Below, piece after piece: positions 41,811 through 53,980 of a DNA stretch of 64,000 nucleotides. Within the stretch, counting starts at the first letter, position 1. Each line of letters starts with the position of its first letter. The notes under the pieces are model-generated. The model was not told where the DNA came from, made no database searches, and worked only from the letters and a program-made list of their open reading frames with translations. A program made the translations under genes and the position numbers. The DNA lies in the NCBI GenBank assembly GCA_022452285.1, contig JAKUNG010000003.1:165470-229469 (forward strand), written 5' to 3'. Source of the DNA: Terriglobia bacterium. GTDB lineage: Bacteria; Acidobacteriota; Terriglobia; Versatilivoradales; Versatilivoraceae.

Positions 41811-43448
41811 GTGAAGCATTGTGGCGTCAGAAAAAGGAGCAGTTTACTTGGTATTGACAGACGGCGTTTTTTGAAAAGCACAAGTGCTTTTCTAGGAACG
41901 TCTAGTTTGCTGGGATTTCCAGGTTATATCAGAGGTAGGTCTAGTATTGAAAACTTAAGGAAGGAAGCCACCCATCGACAGCGTCGCATCATTCTTGATG
42001 ACGATGGAGATTTAGTTTATTCTCCCGAGGCAAAAAAAGGAGCAAGGGCTTTCCTGGCTCTACGTTTAAACCCGGTTTTGGGAACTCCAGTTGATAGTAT
42101 TGCGTGGTGCATTATGTGGGGAATTGCCAAAGGGCAAGGTCAAACTCGTTATTGGGAGACACAACAACGAGGTTGTCCACTTAATGAAAGTATTAGTGAT
42201 CCAACCCCAGTTATGGTGCAGGCAGCTCAAAAACATCAGCTGGAGATTTTTGGATCCATTCGTATGAATGATACACATGATGCTTTTGGAATGCCGGAAG
42301 GAAAACTAATTTATCCTGTTAAAGTAGAGCATCCAGAATGGTTGTTGGGCAACAAGAGCCAGAAGGGTAAGCCCTTTACCACTATGGATGCTGCAATGTG
42401 GTCTGGACTAAATTATGCAATAAAACAAGTTCGAGAAGACCGACTTTGGTGGATTAAACATACGGTAGAAAATTATTTGGTCGATGGTATTGATCTTAAT
42501 TTTTTCCGAATGCCTTGGTATTTTAAACAGGGAGAGGAAGATTCAGGTATGGCATTAATGAATGAATTGATTCGACATGCCCGTTGCATAATCAATAAGG
42601 TTTCAGAATCACGGGGCAGGCCAATACTGCTAGGTGTCAGAATTCCCGGCACTTTAAAAACATGCCAAAGAACTGGTTTAGATGTTGAAACTTGGCTTAA
42701 AGAAAATTTGGTAGACAGACTTCTTGTTGGTGGAGGATATACAGTCTTTACCAATCCAGTCCAAGAGATGGTACAGTTAGGACATTTCCATGATGTACCA
42801 GTTTATCCTTGTATTAATTGTGGCTTGAAGGTTTTTGGTTCAGATAAGGCCATGAGAGGTGCCGCCTCAAATATTTTATCAGCTGGGGCCGATGGGATTT
42901 ATCTTTGGAATTATCAATACCGTAAAGTTCCTATGCTTGCATACGGGCGTCCAGAGCCTTCCTCATACAGGTTGCTGGAGGATCTGAAATCCGCAGCAGC
43001 CTTGAGATTTCAGAATAAAATTTTTGGAGTTGATTACCATCAAGACATTGGTCCTTATGAGAATGCTAGTCATCCAGGACAACTTCCAATAAAACTGAAT
43101 ACTGGTAACCCAGATTCTAAAGTGGCTGTTACTATTCCAGTAGGTGATGATGTAATGGCTGCAAAACGTTCAAATAGATTTCATAAAGCTATTTTGGAGT
43201 TGCAGTTGGAGGGATTACAATCGGATGAACAAATCAAAGCACAGCTTAATGACCATCGGCTTGAAGTTAAGTCAACAAAAATTTTGAAAAAAAATAACAA
43301 TAATTCTTTGATCAAGATCTTATATAACCTTAGTTCAGCGCCGATCAAACAAGGCAATAATCAGTTACATGTTTGGATGAAAAAAAGTAGAAAACAATTT
43401 ATTACTCCGACTCTTCGCCATGTCTGGCTAAAAGTGGACTATCTTTGA
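41811..43448 (+). CDS. Tat-exported protein of unknown function, paralogue A
   Basis: The 545-residue product starts at a GTG with GGAG five bases upstream. The twin-arginine signal is DRRRFLKSTSAFLG. The body looks like an alpha/beta barrel distantly like glycosyl-hydrolase-type proteins, with FGSIRMNDTHDAFG, HPEWLLGN, VDGIDLNFFRMPW, RGRPILLGVRIPGTL and ADGIYLWNYQYR. The same blocks in the same order occur in the 45813-47564 gene, so the two are paralogues. Conserved Asp, His and Glu in those blocks could be catalytic. I do not recognise an enzymatic family with certainty. Confidence 0.7.
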   Translation: MKHCGVRKRSSLLGIDRRRFLKSTSAFLGTSSLLGFPGYIRGRSSIENLRKEATHRQRRIILDDDGDLVYSPEAKKGARAFLALRLNPVLGTPVDSIAWCIMWGIAKGQGQTRYWETQQRGCPLNESISDPTPVMVQAAQKHQLEIFGSIRMNDTHDAFGMPEGKLIYPVKVEHPEWLLGNKSQKGKPFTTMDAAMWSGLNYAIKQVREDRLWWIKHTVENYLVDGIDLNFFRMPWYFKQGEEDSGMALMNELIRHARCIINKVSESRGRPILLGVRIPGTLKTCQRTGLDVETWLKENLVDRLLVGGGYTVFTNPVQEMVQLGHFHDVPVYPCINCGLKVFGSDKAMRGAASNILSAGADGIYLWNYQYRKVPMLAYGRPEPSSYRLLEDLKSAAALRFQNKIFGVDYHQDIGPYENASHPGQLPIKLNTGNPDSKVAVTIPVGDDVMAAKRSNRFHKAILELQLEGLQSDEQIKAQLNDHRLEVKSTKILKKNNNNSLIKILYNLSSAPIKQGNNQLHVWMKKSRKQFITPTLRHVWLKVDYL

Positions 43449-43511
43449 ATTGAATAGGGAAAAAGGCGAAGCTGTTTTTTGATAATGGGTGAGGAGAGTA
43501 GGATTTATTGC

Positions 43512-45704
43512 CTAAGGATTGGCTTTTGCGCTACACAACTCTTCATAGAAAGCCATGCCCTGCTGGATTGTGGTGAGAACATGTTCTTTCTGCTGTTGGG
43601 TGCTAAAATAGGCATCTTCCTGAACCCAACGCTCCAAGGGTTTGAGAAATTCTAATAAGTAGCAACCACTTTGGGACTTTTTAAGTTGGTTTCCTTGGTA
43701 ACTGACATAAACAGGATTGGTGTGAGCAAAAAGAGGATGAGTCCAAATCGAACGTTCTTCGGGCCAGCCTCCTGAACAACGGGCAGCGATCCAAAGGCTT
43801 TTATCGACAAAATGGTCAATGAGTAGGCTTGCTTCCTTGCCACCATTTCTAGATGAAGTGGAGTACATGGGTTGCCCGTTTACCACAAGTTCTAGACGTT
43901 CAAATGATCTATGAGAAAAAGCGGTTGCTTTGATCTGTACTACTTCCCCCTTTTTTAAACTCAATTCATCTCCGGCACCTAAGCCGTTTACACTAAGGCT
44001 AATCATGGGTCCATTAGTAACAAAAGATTGACCTTTTCTTAGCCCATTGATCCAAGATTGATAAGTAAAAGGCACAGTTAATTTAACGTAGACTCTTTGA
44101 TGACCAATTGCTTCCTCCGGTCCAATCCGGTCTGTTCCAGCAGTAGCTGGCAATCGAAAACCACAGTTTAAGAGATGATACCAAAGTTTCAATGCTTCTG
44201 GGAGGCGTGTGTGTGTAAGAATATCTGCTGTGTCAATTGCTCCAAAAACCATATCAATAGGAAACTCCCGTTGTGCAGGGCGTAAGTGCGCCCAATTTAC
44301 TAGACCTTGCTGACGATGCGTTTCTCTCATTACCTCCAAGAGGAGAGGAAAATCTGGTGATCCGGGTTGGCCATGCTTTGGATGACCCTGACCACTGGGA
44401 TCTAAAAATGAATAGCGTAAGATGTTGGGAGTAGGATGTGCTAATCCACCAGTGGAGAGTGGGGTTATCAATTGTTTTAAATTTAGTAGACTGACATGTC
44501 CCAGCTGTTGATTACGGTACTCTTCGTTGTAATACACTAAATGTCTTGAATCTGAAATTGGATCTACCTTTCCTTTAAAATATTGTTGGGAATAAGTTTC
44601 TCCAAGATGGCTAAAGATCAAAACATTACTAACGCGTAAATCCTCTGCCTTCATTTCGAATAACGCACTAGTCGGGTTCAACATATGAATGTGAGTATCG
44701 CCAGAATACCACCCTTCTTTTTCCATGTTCGCCCATCGTTTCAGTCGAAAGGTTTTCTTAATAGTTTTGTTAGGAGGCAGAAACACTTCCTCCTCAAGGG
44801 GAGTGTACTCGAGGCCTCTTCGAATTGAGATTGCTAGTTTTCCAGAGGGAGCACGGATTCGAAAGTTTTCGTTTACATAGTTCCAGCGGGTGGCATTTGC
44901 CCGTGGGCGAAGAATTAATCCATAGGAAGAATCTACTGGAAAGCGATAATTATTCTCTTTATCAATGACCCTAACCCTTCCAAGGGCTGGTGTGCCATCG
45001 GAATTCTCTACCAGCTTACCTACTAATACACCTGTTTCATGAACTTTAAGAGAAGCTTTTTTCTGACCATGGTGAATTTTGGACTCGATTTTAATTATTG
45101 CTTCCCTTTGGCTCATTTCAGAGACTGCAAGGCTAGAAAGAAAATAGCGGGTCATTGCAGGCTGGATCTCAAAGCTTTTTTTCTTAGGAATGAAATCGGA
45201 GGCTGGAAGAGTTATTTTCTGAAGCTGGGATGTAGAATTGTGGATCCTTAGAAGAATTGGTTGAGAAATTTTTTGGTAAAGAACTAATTCTGGGAAATCT
45301 TTGAATTCAAATCCTTCTGGTTCTAATTGAATTTGTATTTTTGGCCAGGGTAGCTCTTTCAGCAAAGAAGAAAATGTGTCTCGGGTCACTTTTAGACTTT
45401 TTGAGAGAAGCCTATTCTTTTTGGATGCCTCAAAAGAGGATATTTTCTGAGAAATGTCGTAAGCATTTAGTGCTTTTAAAACGGTAGCATAGAAATTTCC
45501 ATCGAGCTGGAATTGATTTCGGACTCCTTGATATACATTGCCAACAGCATCAGAATGAATCTCATCTTTGAAAATCGAGTAGAGGTCGTGGACAAGAACT
45601 GGCAGGTCATTCGATTGGGGAACATTTCTGGTAGAACTCTGGTTACAGAAAAAAATTATCACTCCAATCAATATCAAAACCAATCGAGGCTTCCAGCATG
45701 TCAT
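43512..45704 (-). CDS. CehA/McbA-family metallohydrolase with PHP-type domain
   Basis: The 730-residue product has an N-terminal hydrophobic export segment (LVLILIGVIIFFC). The central domain begins EGWYSGDTHIHM, the His-x-His of CehA/McbA-type PHP hydrolases. Later metal-site candidates lie in LIFSHLGE, GLAHPTPN, VNWAHLRPAQ and PATAGTDRIG. CehA and McbA hydrolyse carbamate esters; most relatives are uncharacterised. It lies between the two Tat-exported paralogues, converging with paralogue A and in line with paralogue B. Confidence 0.75.
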   Translation of the reverse strand: MTCWKPRLVLILIGVIIFFCNQSSTRNVPQSNDLPVLVHDLYSIFKDEIHSDAVGNVYQGVRNQFQLDGNFYATVLKALNAYDISQKISSFEASKKNRLLSKSLKVTRDTFSSLLKELPWPKIQIQLEPEGFEFKDFPELVLYQKISQPILLRIHNSTSQLQKITLPASDFIPKKKSFEIQPAMTRYFLSSLAVSEMSQREAIIKIESKIHHGQKKASLKVHETGVLVGKLVENSDGTPALGRVRVIDKENNYRFPVDSSYGLILRPRANATRWNYVNENFRIRAPSGKLAISIRRGLEYTPLEEEVFLPPNKTIKKTFRLKRWANMEKEGWYSGDTHIHMLNPTSALFEMKAEDLRVSNVLIFSHLGETYSQQYFKGKVDPISDSRHLVYYNEEYRNQQLGHVSLLNLKQLITPLSTGGLAHPTPNILRYSFLDPSGQGHPKHGQPGSPDFPLLLEVMRETHRQQGLVNWAHLRPAQREFPIDMVFGAIDTADILTHTRLPEALKLWYHLLNCGFRLPATAGTDRIGPEEAIGHQRVYVKLTVPFTYQSWINGLRKGQSFVTNGPMISLSVNGLGAGDELSLKKGEVVQIKATAFSHRSFERLELVVNGQPMYSTSSRNGGKEASLLIDHFVDKSLWIAARCSGGWPEERSIWTHPLFAHTNPVYVSYQGNQLKKSQSGCYLLEFLKPLERWVQEDAYFSTQQQKEHVLTTIQQGMAFYEELCSAKANP

Positions 45705-45812
45705 TTAAGATATTCCTGTTTATTGGGTAGTTAAGGATTTCCCAAAAATTCTGTTTTTAAAGAACTTGAATAAACCCTAGTTAAAAGATCTCTAGTTATT
45801 CATTTTTTGTTT

Positions 45813-47564
45813 TTAAACCTTTTTTAATTCAGGAATGCTTAAGCGCCCATCTATTAGGGTAATATAAGGTTCTAATCGTTTGTCTCGTTTGACCAATCTA
45901 ATTTCAAGATAATTTGGACCTGGATGAATCGTAATAGGGTCAAGTTTGAATTCAAATTCATGAGTGTCTTTAATGGTTAATCCAGGGAAGGCGCTGGGAT
46001 CTGGCTGAACGGGTTTCCCGTTCCATAGAAAAGCTAACTTATCCTCAGGTCCCAGATCAACCAAACGGACCCAAGCCCTTGGTGACGATGTCGGTCGAAC
46101 TTTTGTTAGATCGTCGGCGATATCAAATACGACCCTATGACCGATATTGTCAGTGGAATAACCAATCATCATGGGAGTCTGGCCAGGCCATTCAGCGTGT
46201 CCAAAGGTACCTGTTAGGACTCCCCCGGTATGAGGGCTGCCATCTAAGAGGTATTTCTTGGCCCCATATTTAAGTAAGTCTGGATTAACCATGTCATGGG
46301 TAAAACTCAAATCTAGTGGATTTTCTCCAGGGCGATGATAGTGGGGCATCCGATAAAAATAGTTCCAAAGCTGGATGCCAGAAATTCCAGAAGAAAAAGC
46401 TCTATAGGTAGCAGCTCGGAGAGATTCGCGGCCCTCTCGGGTAGGTCGAGCATGTGTAAAACAAGCTTGTGAGGGAATGCCATGTTTTTCCCCCAGTTCA
46501 GCAATCTCATTCCAAGGGGTACTGAAAGGGGAGAGACCATTACTGATAACGGTCATATCCAGCAAACCTTCTTCCAGCCAGACTGGAAGATCTATCCCAA
46601 TCCGAAGGCATAGGTCAACGGTTGCGGGAACTCGGGCAGAAATAAATATCGGTCGTCCTCGTCGAGCGCCTTGTTCATTAGCAAGCTTTCGAATTTTGCG
46701 AATAAAAGATGTCATTACATGACGTTGTGCATAGGCTTCGTAACTTGGGAATAGGAAAGGGGATCGGAAAAAGTCGAGCTCAAGACCATCTAAATCATAT
46801 TTATTAACTGTTTCAGCTGCCAAGTTGAAAATAAGATCTCGATAAGGTCCAATGGCATAATTTCCAGCACTTGCTTGAAAATACTGGAAACTCTCATCAG
46901 GATGAGCAATTCCTCGGTCACCAATTAACCATTCTGGATGTTCCCGCTTCCATTTTGGTACATAGAAATAAGGTTCAGCCGGATGGGTTTTTGGTAATGG
47001 GCTTGGTCGATCAAGACCTAAGCGATCTCCCCATCGGTCATGATGGTCATTCATGCGAATTCTAAGAAAAACATCAATGCCGACCTTATGTCCTCCCTCA
47101 CAAATCAAGGTCAAAGGATCCTGACCTGAAGCACACAGACGTTTGACTGCTTCATTCATGCGTAGCGTATTTCCACTTCTTATTACATCTTGATCGTCAC
47201 CGATAATTGGATAGGTTTCAGAGCAATGAGTGGTACCACCGGCATGGTTAATTCCATATGCATACATGCTAATAGCTGAATTTCTCAAAGGCCCAATTGA
47301 TCCCTCAATTAGGCCTTCTGGACTGGGAGGCCAGCCCATCCGAAGGAGAGGATCACCAATGTCTTGAAGTACAACTCGATAATCTTCAGGACGTTTTCCT
47401 GAGAAAGAAGTACCTTGGTTATCCCTTCGTACTAAACCAGCGGCAGTTGCTGTTTTCGGAAGGGAGTTAATTGGATTTAAACTCAGGGCTGTTCCAGCGA
47501 GGGCTGTTGTACGCAGGAACCTCCTGCGTGAAAAACTCGAAAGTGGACGGGTTGCTTTAGGCAT
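45813..47564 (-). CDS. Tat-exported protein of unknown function, paralogue B
   Basis: The 583-residue product has a textbook twin-arginine signal SRRRFLRTTALAGTALS. The body shares ordered blocks with paralogue A: FLRIRMNDHHDRWG, HPEWLIGD, LDGLELDFFRSPF, RGRPIFISARVPATV and SGIQLWNYFYR. A C-terminal beta-rich part follows, with GPNYLEIRLV near the end. GGAGAA precedes the start. It is 108 bp upstream of the CehA/McbA-like gene on the same strand, so both may be on one transcript. Function unknown; a glycan-active role is inferred from the barrel-like pattern and neighbours. Confidence 0.7.
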   Translation of the reverse strand: MPKATRPLSSFSRRRFLRTTALAGTALSLNPINSLPKTATAAGLVRRDNQGTSFSGKRPEDYRVVLQDIGDPLLRMGWPPSPEGLIEGSIGPLRNSAISMYAYGINHAGGTTHCSETYPIIGDDQDVIRSGNTLRMNEAVKRLCASGQDPLTLICEGGHKVGIDVFLRIRMNDHHDRWGDRLGLDRPSPLPKTHPAEPYFYVPKWKREHPEWLIGDRGIAHPDESFQYFQASAGNYAIGPYRDLIFNLAAETVNKYDLDGLELDFFRSPFLFPSYEAYAQRHVMTSFIRKIRKLANEQGARRGRPIFISARVPATVDLCLRIGIDLPVWLEEGLLDMTVISNGLSPFSTPWNEIAELGEKHGIPSQACFTHARPTREGRESLRAATYRAFSSGISGIQLWNYFYRMPHYHRPGENPLDLSFTHDMVNPDLLKYGAKKYLLDGSPHTGGVLTGTFGHAEWPGQTPMMIGYSTDNIGHRVVFDIADDLTKVRPTSSPRAWVRLVDLGPEDKLAFLWNGKPVQPDPSAFPGLTIKDTHEFEFKLDPITIHPGPNYLEIRLVKRDKRLEPYITLIDGRLSIPELKKV

Positions 47565-49890: not shown

Positions 49891-51267
49891 CTATTTTTTT
49901 TCCAATACCATGGTTTCAGTTTCTAACCGTTTAAACATGACTTTGTACTGAACAGATCCGTCATCATCCCAATACTCAGTAGCAAGAGGACTATCAAAAC
50001 TCATGGGAATTAAACGCCAGATATTTGGTAAAACCATTAAGTTTTTTGTTTCAGGGGGACGCATGAGGTTGTACATGGTTGTTCCATTTTTAAAACGGGT
50101 CTTTAAAATGTAAGGAGGTTGTTGAGGAGGACGGTTCTGCTTGAGTTTTTCAAGAGCTTCCCGGTCTAGGGTCACACCTAGGCCAGGACGTTCTGAAACA
50201 CGCAGGAAACCATTAACCGGTTCCAGTCTTTCCTTCACTACATCAGAAGCATATATTTCGGAGGTCGTAACAAATGGTAGGCTTGCAGTTTTGAAAGCTG
50301 ACTGCATGTGAGAAACCATGGCTCGGCTAATTCCACCTCCTGCCCATTGCACAGTAAATGGCACATTTGTCGAAGCAAAGAGCCCGGCTCGTCGTATAAC
50401 TACACCAAGCTTAAGATGCCCAACAATATACCCATCAGCCGATTGTTTTAGTACATCAAAAGTATGTTGTATTCTGCTGCCATGTCTTAAAATTGGCAAC
50501 CGGATACTTTTCTTTAAATCAATGTAGGACTCGATGTCGTTCATCTGCTCCAAAGGATCTTCAAAGCACCCAGCGATAGGAGAGTGGGAAATCCGTTCCA
50601 CCAAGTCAGGGTTATGGCCGTAATGGCCGAAATGCGTGAGGTCAAAATGAAGTTTAAACCCTCGTGGGGCCACACGTTCCATGGCTTCCAGTTGATCAAA
50701 AACATTTTCAAAAGGAGAGAGGTGATACTTCATCCAGGTGTAACCCATAGCTGAGTATTTTTCAACTACTTGGGCCATTGCATCAGGCCGGGTTGACACC
50801 GTCCAGGAACTGATGGGCACCCAGCGGCGGTATCTTTGTCCAAAAAGCTTATAGACTGGTATCCTGGCTGCCTTACCCATCAGATCGTACATTGCCTTGG
50901 CCATTGGCTTCGATAATTCATCTCCGACCCAGTCAAAGGGACTGGTTCCTATATATTTATCTAAAACATCCTGAGGTTCATCTCGACCTTCGCCTAGCCC
51001 GTAAAAACCTTTGTTTGTATGTGCAACATAAATAGTTCGTGGTCTGGGTCCATAAAAATGATTGAGCTGATGCTGTTGCCAAGGAACATAATTGGGATGG
51101 ATTTTATGTTTTTCCACATCAGTGACTATGAGGGGGCCATTGACCGAGTCAGAGGTTTTCTTAGCAGCGAGTGCCGCTTTCCAAGGTCTTACTACAGCAG
51201 TTGAACCAATTAAACTTGCTATCCCTGTTGTTAAAAACTGCCGACGATTTTGGCCTTTGTTTTCCAT
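49891..51267 (-). CDS. Tat-exported enolase-superfamily protein with altered active site
   Basis: The 458-residue product has a Tat-like signal NRRQFLTTGIASLIGS and then an enolase-fold barrel. Candidate active-site positions are MKYH (the KxK position), FDLTHFG (Asp ligand) and CFEDPLEQ (Glu ligand). The third ligand position, in LRHGSRIQ, appears to be Ser, and the later His-Asp dyad region reads GHLKLGVV and VQWAGGG. It may therefore bind metal poorly or use other chemistry. The plus-strand enolase gene diverges from it. The family is mostly sugar-acid dehydratases. Confidence 0.75.
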   Translation of the reverse strand: MENKGQNRRQFLTTGIASLIGSTAVVRPWKAALAAKKTSDSVNGPLIVTDVEKHKIHPNYVPWQQHQLNHFYGPRPRTIYVAHTNKGFYGLGEGRDEPQDVLDKYIGTSPFDWVGDELSKPMAKAMYDLMGKAARIPVYKLFGQRYRRWVPISSWTVSTRPDAMAQVVEKYSAMGYTWMKYHLSPFENVFDQLEAMERVAPRGFKLHFDLTHFGHYGHNPDLVERISHSPIAGCFEDPLEQMNDIESYIDLKKSIRLPILRHGSRIQHTFDVLKQSADGYIVGHLKLGVVIRRAGLFASTNVPFTVQWAGGGISRAMVSHMQSAFKTASLPFVTTSEIYASDVVKERLEPVNGFLRVSERPGLGVTLDREALEKLKQNRPPQQPPYILKTRFKNGTTMYNLMRPPETKNLMVLPNIWRLIPMSFDSPLATEYWDDDGSVQYKVMFKRLETETMVLEKK

Positions 51268-51634: not shown

Positions 51635-52753
51635 ATGAAAATTGACCGCATTGAGGTTAAAGTAATTGGACCTCAAGTTCAACGCTTTACCTGGTCCCAC
51701 GATTTACCAGAACAATATACGACAAATACCATTGTTCGCATTTTTACCGATGAAGGAATCGAGGGATTTGCTGGCGTTTCTAACTATACTTCTTATAGTT
51801 ATGATAAATATACAGCGGAGACACTCAAACATATGATTCCAGCCCTTATTGGTAAGAATCCCTTGCAGCGTGAAACTTTATGGAAAAGCCTATTCTCGAG
51901 GGTATTTCCACTTTCACCAGGAGCCTTAGCAGTTGTGGATACAGCCCTTTGGGATCTTTTAGGCAAGGTATCTAATCTGCCAATCTATCAACTTTTGGGT
52001 GGGGCACGAGACTACATTCCTTCCTATGCAAGCACCCCACTTTTCAAAGATGTCCCAGCTTATCTAGACTTTGTTGATGAAATGCTGGATCAAGGATTTA
52101 AAGCGATAAAGTTTCATTGTTGGTGCATACCAGAAAAAGATTTGGAACTAGCTTTTGCAGCTCGTAAGAAATATTCCGCTTCTAAAGTTGCCTTCATGTT
52201 AGATGTAGAGAACAACTATGACTGGCAAAGTGCTTTGAAAGTGGCACGAGAATTAGAAGACCTTGAATTCACCTGGTTTGAAGCGCCACTGATGGATTAT
52301 GACTTTGAAGGGTATCAGAAATTGACCAGTTCTGTTGACATTCCTGTCCTGCCCTCGGGTAACTGGATTCAGGATCTACCATCATTTAAACGAGCTTTGG
52401 ACCTGTCTGCCTGGACTGCTGCCCGGACTGATATAACAGTTTGTGGTGGTTTAACTCCTACTCGTAAGGCTCTTGCATTAGTTGATGCGGCGGGAATGAA
52501 ATGCGAGATAATGTCTTGGGGCAACACATTGGTTTCAGCAGCTAATCTACATCTGATGCTGGGTTTAAATCATTCCACCTATTTTGAACAGGCTGTGCCC
52601 TATGAGCCTTACGAGTATGGGATGAAAGATGTGATTCGGACTCAGTCGGATGGAATGGTTCGTGCACCAAAAGGACCTGGATTGGGTTTTGAAGTCGACT
52701 GGAACCTAATGAATGAAGCTAGTATATTTGCTTTTGATAGTAATTCTCTGTAG
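51635..52753 (+). CDS. Mandelate racemase/enolase-superfamily protein
   Basis: The 372-residue cytoplasmic product has the N-terminal capping domain and the enolase barrel. AIKFHCWC is the KxK position (here KxH), FMLDVENNYD gives the first metal ligand Asp and FTWFEAP the second, Glu. The third is Asn in PSGNWIQD, as in glucarate dehydratases. TDITVCGGLTP retains the Asp of the usual dyad, but its His partner position reads SWGN. An acid-sugar dehydratase is likely but unproven. The DadA-like oxidase gene follows by 99 bp. Confidence 0.85.
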   Translation: MKIDRIEVKVIGPQVQRFTWSHDLPEQYTTNTIVRIFTDEGIEGFAGVSNYTSYSYDKYTAETLKHMIPALIGKNPLQRETLWKSLFSRVFPLSPGALAVVDTALWDLLGKVSNLPIYQLLGGARDYIPSYASTPLFKDVPAYLDFVDEMLDQGFKAIKFHCWCIPEKDLELAFAARKKYSASKVAFMLDVENNYDWQSALKVARELEDLEFTWFEAPLMDYDFEGYQKLTSSVDIPVLPSGNWIQDLPSFKRALDLSAWTAARTDITVCGGLTPTRKALALVDAAGMKCEIMSWGNTLVSAANLHLMLGLNHSTYFEQAVPYEPYEYGMKDVIRTQSDGMVRAPKGPGLGFEVDWNLMNEASIFAFDSNSL

Positions 52754-52852: not shown

Positions 52853-53980
52853 ATGTCATTAGATTCCAAATTTGAAGTGATTGTAGTAGGTGGTGGTGCT
52901 ATTGGTTGTACCATTGCCTACTACCTGCGGTCAGAAGGGTTTAAGGTAGCCTTAGTTGATAAGGGTCCGATTGGTTTTGAGGCATCTTGGGCCTCAGCAG
53001 GCATTGTAGGTCCCGGAACCTTCCTGGGAGGTAATTCTTGGTTTAAGCCAGCAACCAAGATGTCAAAAAAACTGTACGATGATCTCAATCAAGCACTTCA
53101 TGAAGAAACAGGACAACTGGTGGAATACGGGGGACAGGGTACTCTAACTTTAGCCTTTAATGCAGAGGAGGTTGATGGGATCCAACAATACGTAAAAAAA
53201 CAAAAGGGAGATGACGTGCCCACAGAAATTCTGATGGGTGTAGAAGCTCGTCAACGGGAACCATCCTTACCCGAAAATCTTCTTGCTGCAATGTTAAGGC
53301 CTGATGGACGATTCTTGGATGCTCGAAACTATACGTTAACCATAGCCAAGGCAGCAGAAATAAAAGGAGTGCGGATGATACAAGGATGGCCAGTTACAGA
53401 ATTTCTATGGGAAAAATCAAGAATAGCAGGAGTCAAATCTGGATTTAGCAGTCTAATAGCGGACTGGGTTATAAATGCTGCTGGAGCATGGGGAGGTGAA
53501 TTAGATCCAAAACTCGTTCTGCCAATTTTCCCGGATCATGGACAAATTATGGCTCTAAAAGGTCCAGTAAATGGTCTAAGGCATACCTTATGTCGTTGGA
53601 ACCAATCTGGGTACATAACTCCCCGAGTAGACGGCCGAGCCTTAGTTGGAGCTACCCATGAACAAATCGGCTTCCAAAAAATGATTACACCGATGGGACT
53701 AAGGGTTTTATCTGATATCACGAAAAGAGTATTACCCGAGTTAAGTGATAGAAAAATCTTGGATATTTGGTCAGGTTTGCGTCCCGCTACCAAAGACGGT
53801 TTACCCGTCATTGGACCAGACTACCGAACAACTGGCGGTTATCTATGGGCTACTGGACATTCGAGTAGTGGTATGATGCAGGCACCAGCTACTGCAAAAG
53901 TAATCGTAGATCTGGTTTCCAATAAAAAACCTAGAATTCCCATAGAGGAAGTAAGTGTTAACCGATTCATAAAAGTGTAG
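52853..53980 (+). CDS. DadA/glycine-oxidase-like FAD oxidoreductase
   Basis: The 375-residue product belongs to the DAO family. The dinucleotide-binding motif VVGGGAIGCTIAYYLRSEG is at the N-terminus. The FAD-contacting C-terminal region includes WSGLRPATKDGLPVIGPDY and WATGHSSSGMMQAPATAKV. It has no signal peptide. Substrates in the family are D-amino acids, glycine, sarcosine and similar amines. It is probably cotranscribed with the enolase-family gene 99 bp upstream, and GAGG precedes its ATG. Confidence 0.87.
   Translation: MSLDSKFEVIVVGGGAIGCTIAYYLRSEGFKVALVDKGPIGFEASWASAGIVGPGTFLGGNSWFKPATKMSKKLYDDLNQALHEETGQLVEYGGQGTLTLAFNAEEVDGIQQYVKKQKGDDVPTEILMGVEARQREPSLPENLLAAMLRPDGRFLDARNYTLTIAKAAEIKGVRMIQGWPVTEFLWEKSRIAGVKSGFSSLIADWVINAAGAWGGELDPKLVLPIFPDHGQIMALKGPVNGLRHTLCRWNQSGYITPRVDGRALVGATHEQIGFQKMITPMGLRVLSDITKRVLPELSDRKILDIWSGLRPATKDGLPVIGPDYRTTGGYLWATGHSSSGMMQAPATAKVIVDLVSNKKPRIPIEEVSVNRFIKV

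Follow-up and report, generated by a model that had tools for sequence, protein, structure and literature searches.

A GH156-lineage paralogue pair around a CehA/McbA-family metallohydrolase in an Acidobacteriota genome: one copy keeps the predicted active site, the other has isoleucine at the catalytic-base position

What do two paralogous exported proteins do next to a CehA/McbA-type metallohydrolase? The question is raised by a locus in a 64,000-nucleotide stretch of DNA from a Terriglobia bacterium, which is referred to here as the window. An earlier note had described the paralogues as a family with no named function and the three genes as a candidate for an undescribed system, located in the envelope and perhaps acting on a glycan. 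The three ORFs reported there were verified, and they are listed below with the codons and the neighboring gene to which the argument refers.

Paralogue A, 41811 to 43448, plus strand: 545 aa, GTG start; Tat-exported GH156-like protein with seven of the seven GH156 active-site residues checked.
CehA/McbA-family metallohydrolase (CehA), 43512 to 45704, minus strand: 730 aa; residues 336 to 340 form a PHP-type DTHIH motif; N-terminal signal-like segment.
Paralogue C, 45813 to 47564, minus strand: 583 aa; Tat-exported GH156-like protein with the triad and the general acid kept and Ile at the base position.
Asp65 codon of A, 42003 to 42005, plus strand: pairs in the alignment with Asp14, the catalytic base of EnvSia156.
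His156 codon of A, 42276 to 42278, plus strand: pairs in the alignment with His134, the general acid of EnvSia156.
Ile69 codon of C, 47358 to 47360, minus strand: at the Asp14 column, flanked as QD-I-GD.
His175 codon of C, 47040 to 47042, minus strand: aligned with the general acid His134.
FAD-dependent amino-acid-oxidase-like gene (DAO), 52853 to 53980, plus strand: syntenic neighbor, the orthologue of which adjoins C divergently in the sister genus.

The hydrolase gene indeed lies between A and C, but the genes do not bracket it symmetrically. Only C and CehA are co-oriented, with CehA 108 bp downstream of C, whereas A is encoded on the opposite strand and converges with CehA, their stops being separated by 63 bp. 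C and CehA are thus the sole possible operon partners, and plausibly form one operon. Direct reading of the N-termini confirmed the Tat signals claimed for both paralogues, with the twin-arginine motifs DRRRFLKS in A and SRRRFLRT in C; the TIGR01409 model matched C alone, below threshold. Elsewhere in the window, a twin-arginine signal-like N-terminal stretch was also noticed in an enolase-superfamily protein (49891 to 51267, minus strand; MR_MLE_C match only), a feature that dehydratases of this superfamily do not usually have.

A and C are paralogues, as the earlier note had proposed from five shared sequence blocks, all of which are present. A BLASTP alignment of 503 columns shows 27% identity between them (E = 3e-49), and in the family tree they form, together with their orthologues, sister lineages with 100% bootstrap support. 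Searches of Pfam, NCBIfam, and PHROGs returned no name for either protein, and an "unknown family" is therefore the expected outcome of plain annotation. It was a sequence search of the PDB that gave both proteins their family, the best match being EnvSia156 (PDB 6rzd), the founding GH156 inverting exosialidase (phmmer E = 9.7e-16 for A and 2.5e-15 for C). EnvSia156 was also reached by a profile built from A and C plus their orthologues (E = 1.7e-26) and by one built from the 25 family genes that this genome carries (E = 2e-58, spanning EnvSia156 residues 9 to 383). Identity to EnvSia156 is only 21 to 23%, from which the substrate is not deducible. Moderate in quality (mean pLDDT of 65 for A and 62 for C, with low values around the active-site loops), the AlphaFold2 models gave the same answer in Foldseek: the three best matches of both were the EnvSia156 structures 6s00, 6s04, and 6rzd, with best E values of 7e-25 for A (top match 6s00) and 9e-27 for C, and the next fold followed at about 1e-10 to 1e-9. 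In the model of A, a (beta/alpha)8 barrel precedes a beta-sandwich, as in GH156 and in EnvSia156 itself (PMC6254351, PMC6811678). Cwp19, the second fold match of the two models, lacks the GH156 active-site residues (PMC6811678). The glycosyl-hydrolase-like family GHL10 was rejected for C, since its Pfam similarity (E = 0.002) is below the cut-off and far poorer than that to GH156. Sequence, predicted fold, and motifs together place A and C in the GH156 sialidase lineage, as proteins predicted to combine a (beta/alpha)8 barrel with a beta-sandwich. The paralogue family is consequently not a nameless one, and the locus is better viewed as a new member (A) and a variant (C) of a known kind of protein than as an undescribed system.

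We next aligned this lineage with the catalytic apparatus of EnvSia156, in which Asp14 is the general base, His134 the general acid, Arg129, Arg202, and Asn346 form the triad that holds the substrate carboxylate, and Arg246 is conserved and buried (PMC6811678). All seven residues checked are kept in A: D65 (Asp14), H156 (His134), D154 (Asp132), the triad R151, R233, and N367, and R277 (Arg246). The blocks shared by the paralogues turn out to be GH156 motifs, IRMND-HD carrying Arg129, Asp132, and His134, D-FFR carrying Arg202, the R-P-T block Arg246, and LWNY Asn346. By contrast, A does not retain in the alignment residues that contact the glycerol tail of sialic acid in EnvSia156 (Asn15, Ser16, and Tyr135, among others), so that its sugar can be predicted only by class. 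By homology to EnvSia156, the most likely role of A is that of an inverting exo-glycosidase, which would remove a terminal alpha-keto acid sugar outside the cytoplasm, putatively sialic acid or a related sugar, for instance Kdn. Asp65 would activate the water and His156 protonate the leaving group, while Arg151, Arg233, and Asn367 would hold the carboxylate. A is thus best described as a new GH156 member of predicted activity, and for this protein the match to a glycoside hydrolase family is a confident one. A caveat is that sialidase activity, according to a secondary report (cited in PMC10298468), was found in only 5 of the 19 GH156 proteins expressed in one study.

The match is only partial for C. 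The same alignment places H175 at His134, R170, R267, and N401 at the triad, R311 at Arg246, and D173 at Asp132, i.e., six of the seven residues, whereas Ile69 occupies the Asp14 column, a correspondence read from sequence alignment, with models of low confidence around the active-site loops. Isoleucine stands at this column in all eight C orthologues found, within VVLQDIGD in the seven of the sister genus and IILQDIAD in the one of a third genus. By alignment, C thus lacks the GH156 catalytic base, and for this reason it is classed here as a GH156-related protein rather than a GH156 sialidase.

C is nevertheless not a decaying copy. Among close orthologues, its dN/dS (Nei-Gojobori) is 0.09 to 0.13, compared with 0.16 to 0.28 for A and 0.24 to 0.33 for CehA, which makes C, at about 0.1, the most conserved gene of the trio and one clearly in use. 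Loss of the base has therefore been tolerated or selected in a functional protein, and C either binds without cleaving or uses another base. The properties of EnvSia156 bear on both options. Every Asp14 mutant of this enzyme was inactive, and its D14A variant retained weak binding to a sialoside on a glycan array (PMC6811678); the first result makes a GH156-type hydrolase improbable, and the second renders a binding role plausible. With the same carboxylate clamp and general acid as A, C is probably a glycan-binding or otherwise repurposed paralogue. Alternatively, A and C could both be active exo-glycosidases of the GH156 lineage with different linkage or sugar specificities, the base of C having shifted to Asp68 or Asp71 in QDIGD. 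These two residues, adjacent to the lost position, are invariant in all orthologues, and the retention of the general acid, the triad, and Arg246, together with the strongest purifying selection among the three genes, would fit an active C. However, a one-residue shift in a beta strand normally points the side chain away from the pocket, and 24 of the 25 family members of this genome, even those devoid of the remaining site, carry Asp exactly at the Asp14 column, indicating that the position matters. We consider a relocated base unlikely, and retain for C the reading of a binding or repurposed protein.

The protein between the paralogues is a CehA/McbA-type hydrolase, as had been recognized: it scores 181 bits against NF038032 (cut-off, 80), and DTHIH (D336-T-H-I-H340) is invariant in six CehA orthologues. 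It differs from known CehA/McbA proteins, among them the carbaryl hydrolase CehA, in about 330 extra N-terminal residues, an export-signal-like N-terminus, a glycosidase-like neighborhood, and no known carbamate substrate. The founding CehA enzyme cleaves a carbamate ester, and removal of an ester-like group from a glycan is accordingly the simplest proposal for its relative here. In what is the weakest step of the scheme, the metallohydrolase would probably trim such a substituent from the same glycan or from the product.

Whether CehA belongs with its neighbors at all was assessed by synteny. Orthologues of C occur in seven genomes of the sister genus (74 to 77% identity) and in one of a third genus (51%). 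CehA follows C on the same strand in all seven sister-genus genomes, and A lies 2 to 3 kb beyond CehA on the opposite strand, so that eight genomes from two genera share the order C-CehA-A; in one of them, the locus is split over two contigs and the order is deduced. In the sister genus, a BNR propeller gene weakly similar to known sialidases is placed between CehA and A, and a DAO-type oxidase gene adjoins C (loci L102, L103, L106, and L107). Same-strand pairs of a GH156-like gene followed by CehA also recur elsewhere. There are two in this genome (in the window and at 332496 to 336234 of contig C1), two in a single-contig relative (G009), and two in a genome of another Acidobacteriota family (G086), i.e., two observed in each of the three genomes surveyed versus 0.2 to 0.3 expected; the two loci of the relative may be orthologous to the two found here, which leaves about four independent cases. 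The linkage with CehA suggested by the earlier note was thus borne out beyond this locus, within and outside the bacterial family. It could still be argued that CehA is a chance neighbor of unrelated role and that the "system" amounts to no more than an old tandem pair of paralogues that never separated. In the three genomes, the majority of CehA genes do not adjoin a GH156-like gene, a permutation test run on this genome reached nominal significance only (p, 0.02 to 0.03), and the gene next to C in the third genus (G002) is not CehA. Yet chance would have to account for the one-strand C-CehA adjacency in eight genomes of two genera, as well as for the pairs at a second locus here, in the single-contig relative, and, twice, in a different family of the phylum. 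This explanation is quite improbable; the link between CehA and GH156-like genes is real but not obligate.

A glycan-acting exported set is probable, as had been proposed, and the genome offers some hints as to the sugar. NanE (PF04131) had no match in this genome, while control genomes were positive. A sialic-acid catabolic route is not supported, and the standard Neu5Ac route looks incomplete in the absence of a NanE homologue. The same 3.2-Mb genome encodes 15 members of the DHDPS/N-acetylneuraminate-lyase (NAL) superfamily, several of them no more than 15 kb away from a GH156-like gene. Around family members, NAL/DHDPS and BNR genes are enriched only nominally, and only at some distances. 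Clustering of the neighbors of family members brought up SDR, sugar-acid dehydratase, and symporter genes, among others, as recurrent, a result that is suggestive only. The A/C pair might act on a sialic-acid-free glycan, e.g., a polysaccharide bearing uronic or aldonic acids, and feed sugar-acid dehydratases and aldolases. Consistently, enolase-superfamily sugar-acid dehydratase-like genes (in the window, at 49891 to 51267 and 51635 to 52753) and HpaI/GarL-like aldolases recur near family members, NanE is missing, and a review names plant glycans as likely targets of environmental GH156 proteins (PMC11929135). We regard this alternative as doubtful, since A and C keep the triad for a carboxylate on the anomeric carbon, a feature of 2-keto acid sugars, and the members that truly look re-targeted are others, which lost the triad. 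A 2-keto acid sugar is thus still preferred as the target of A. The MAGs of the relatives are, we presume, mostly from marine sponges. In a survey of sponge MAGs, both GH33 sialidases and polysaccharide-degrading Acidobacteriota were reported to be enriched (PMC8163846).

Beyond the window, A and C are part of a large family, with 25 members in this assembly (3.24 Mb, 87 contigs, 7% contamination) and 44 genes in the single-contig relative. Many family genes were also found in another Acidobacteriota family (G062 and G086), whereas among the 199 genomes sampled from the phylum just 6 gave a strong match. Such copy numbers per genome set this group apart from EnvSia156, as do the Tat signals of A and C and the isoleucine of the latter. 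All seven residues are kept in eight of the 25 members: A, a fusion protein in locus L009, one protein in L016, and those of L011, L013, L021, L023, and L024. C has six. Triad and acid are gone from most of the remaining 16, all of which nevertheless have Asp14 and most of which have Arg246. EnvSia156 branches among the motif-keeping members in the tree, and 14 divergent members form a clade of their own (support, 93). About 15 paralogues (in L009, L010, L012, L015, L017, L018, L019, L022, and L025) retain the Asp14 equivalent, mostly within a D-[GSA]-RH motif, but neither triad nor acid, and as judged from these motifs are a probable subfamily with another substrate. Two further observations concern individual members. 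The fusion (L009:2451-5291; contig C1, about 323450 to 326290) is a 946-residue protein in which a BNR/sialidase-like propeller region is joined to a GH156-like barrel with seven of the seven residues, i.e., a natural fusion of two predicted sialidase-type folds. L023 and L024 (C12:270348-271799 and C87:51062-52513) carry near-identical genes on different contigs and may be one gene assembled twice, given the 7% contamination. The literature searched yielded no description of a GH156 expansion in Acidobacteriota or sponge-associated bacteria.

Collectively, our preferred explanation, to which we assign a probability of roughly 0.6, is that A is an exo-glycosidase, C a binding or repurposed paralogue, and CehA a trimming enzyme, the trio being one of many small exported glycan-processing loci in what would be a lineage-specific GH156-like expansion of the "Ca. 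Versatilivoraceae" group. More tentatively, and at somewhat less than even odds, C may found a GH156-derived non-hydrolytic subfamily (sialoglycan binding or differently catalytic) paired with CehA, while the roughly 15 base-only members would constitute a new family of glycosidases acting on another substrate within the 25- to 44-copy expansion. Few GH156 members have been characterized so far, and this locus offers a natural pair in one small region, a complete-site copy and its sister. C is the natural equivalent of the laboratory Asp14 mutant and yet the best-conserved gene of the set, which makes the A/C pair a clean test of a possible conversion of GH156 barrels into binding proteins. 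In the lineage concerned, the named members of which are "Ca. Versatilivorator" and related Acidobacteriota MAGs, 25 to 44 copies per genome would suggest that a set of exported glycan enzymes has been overlooked.
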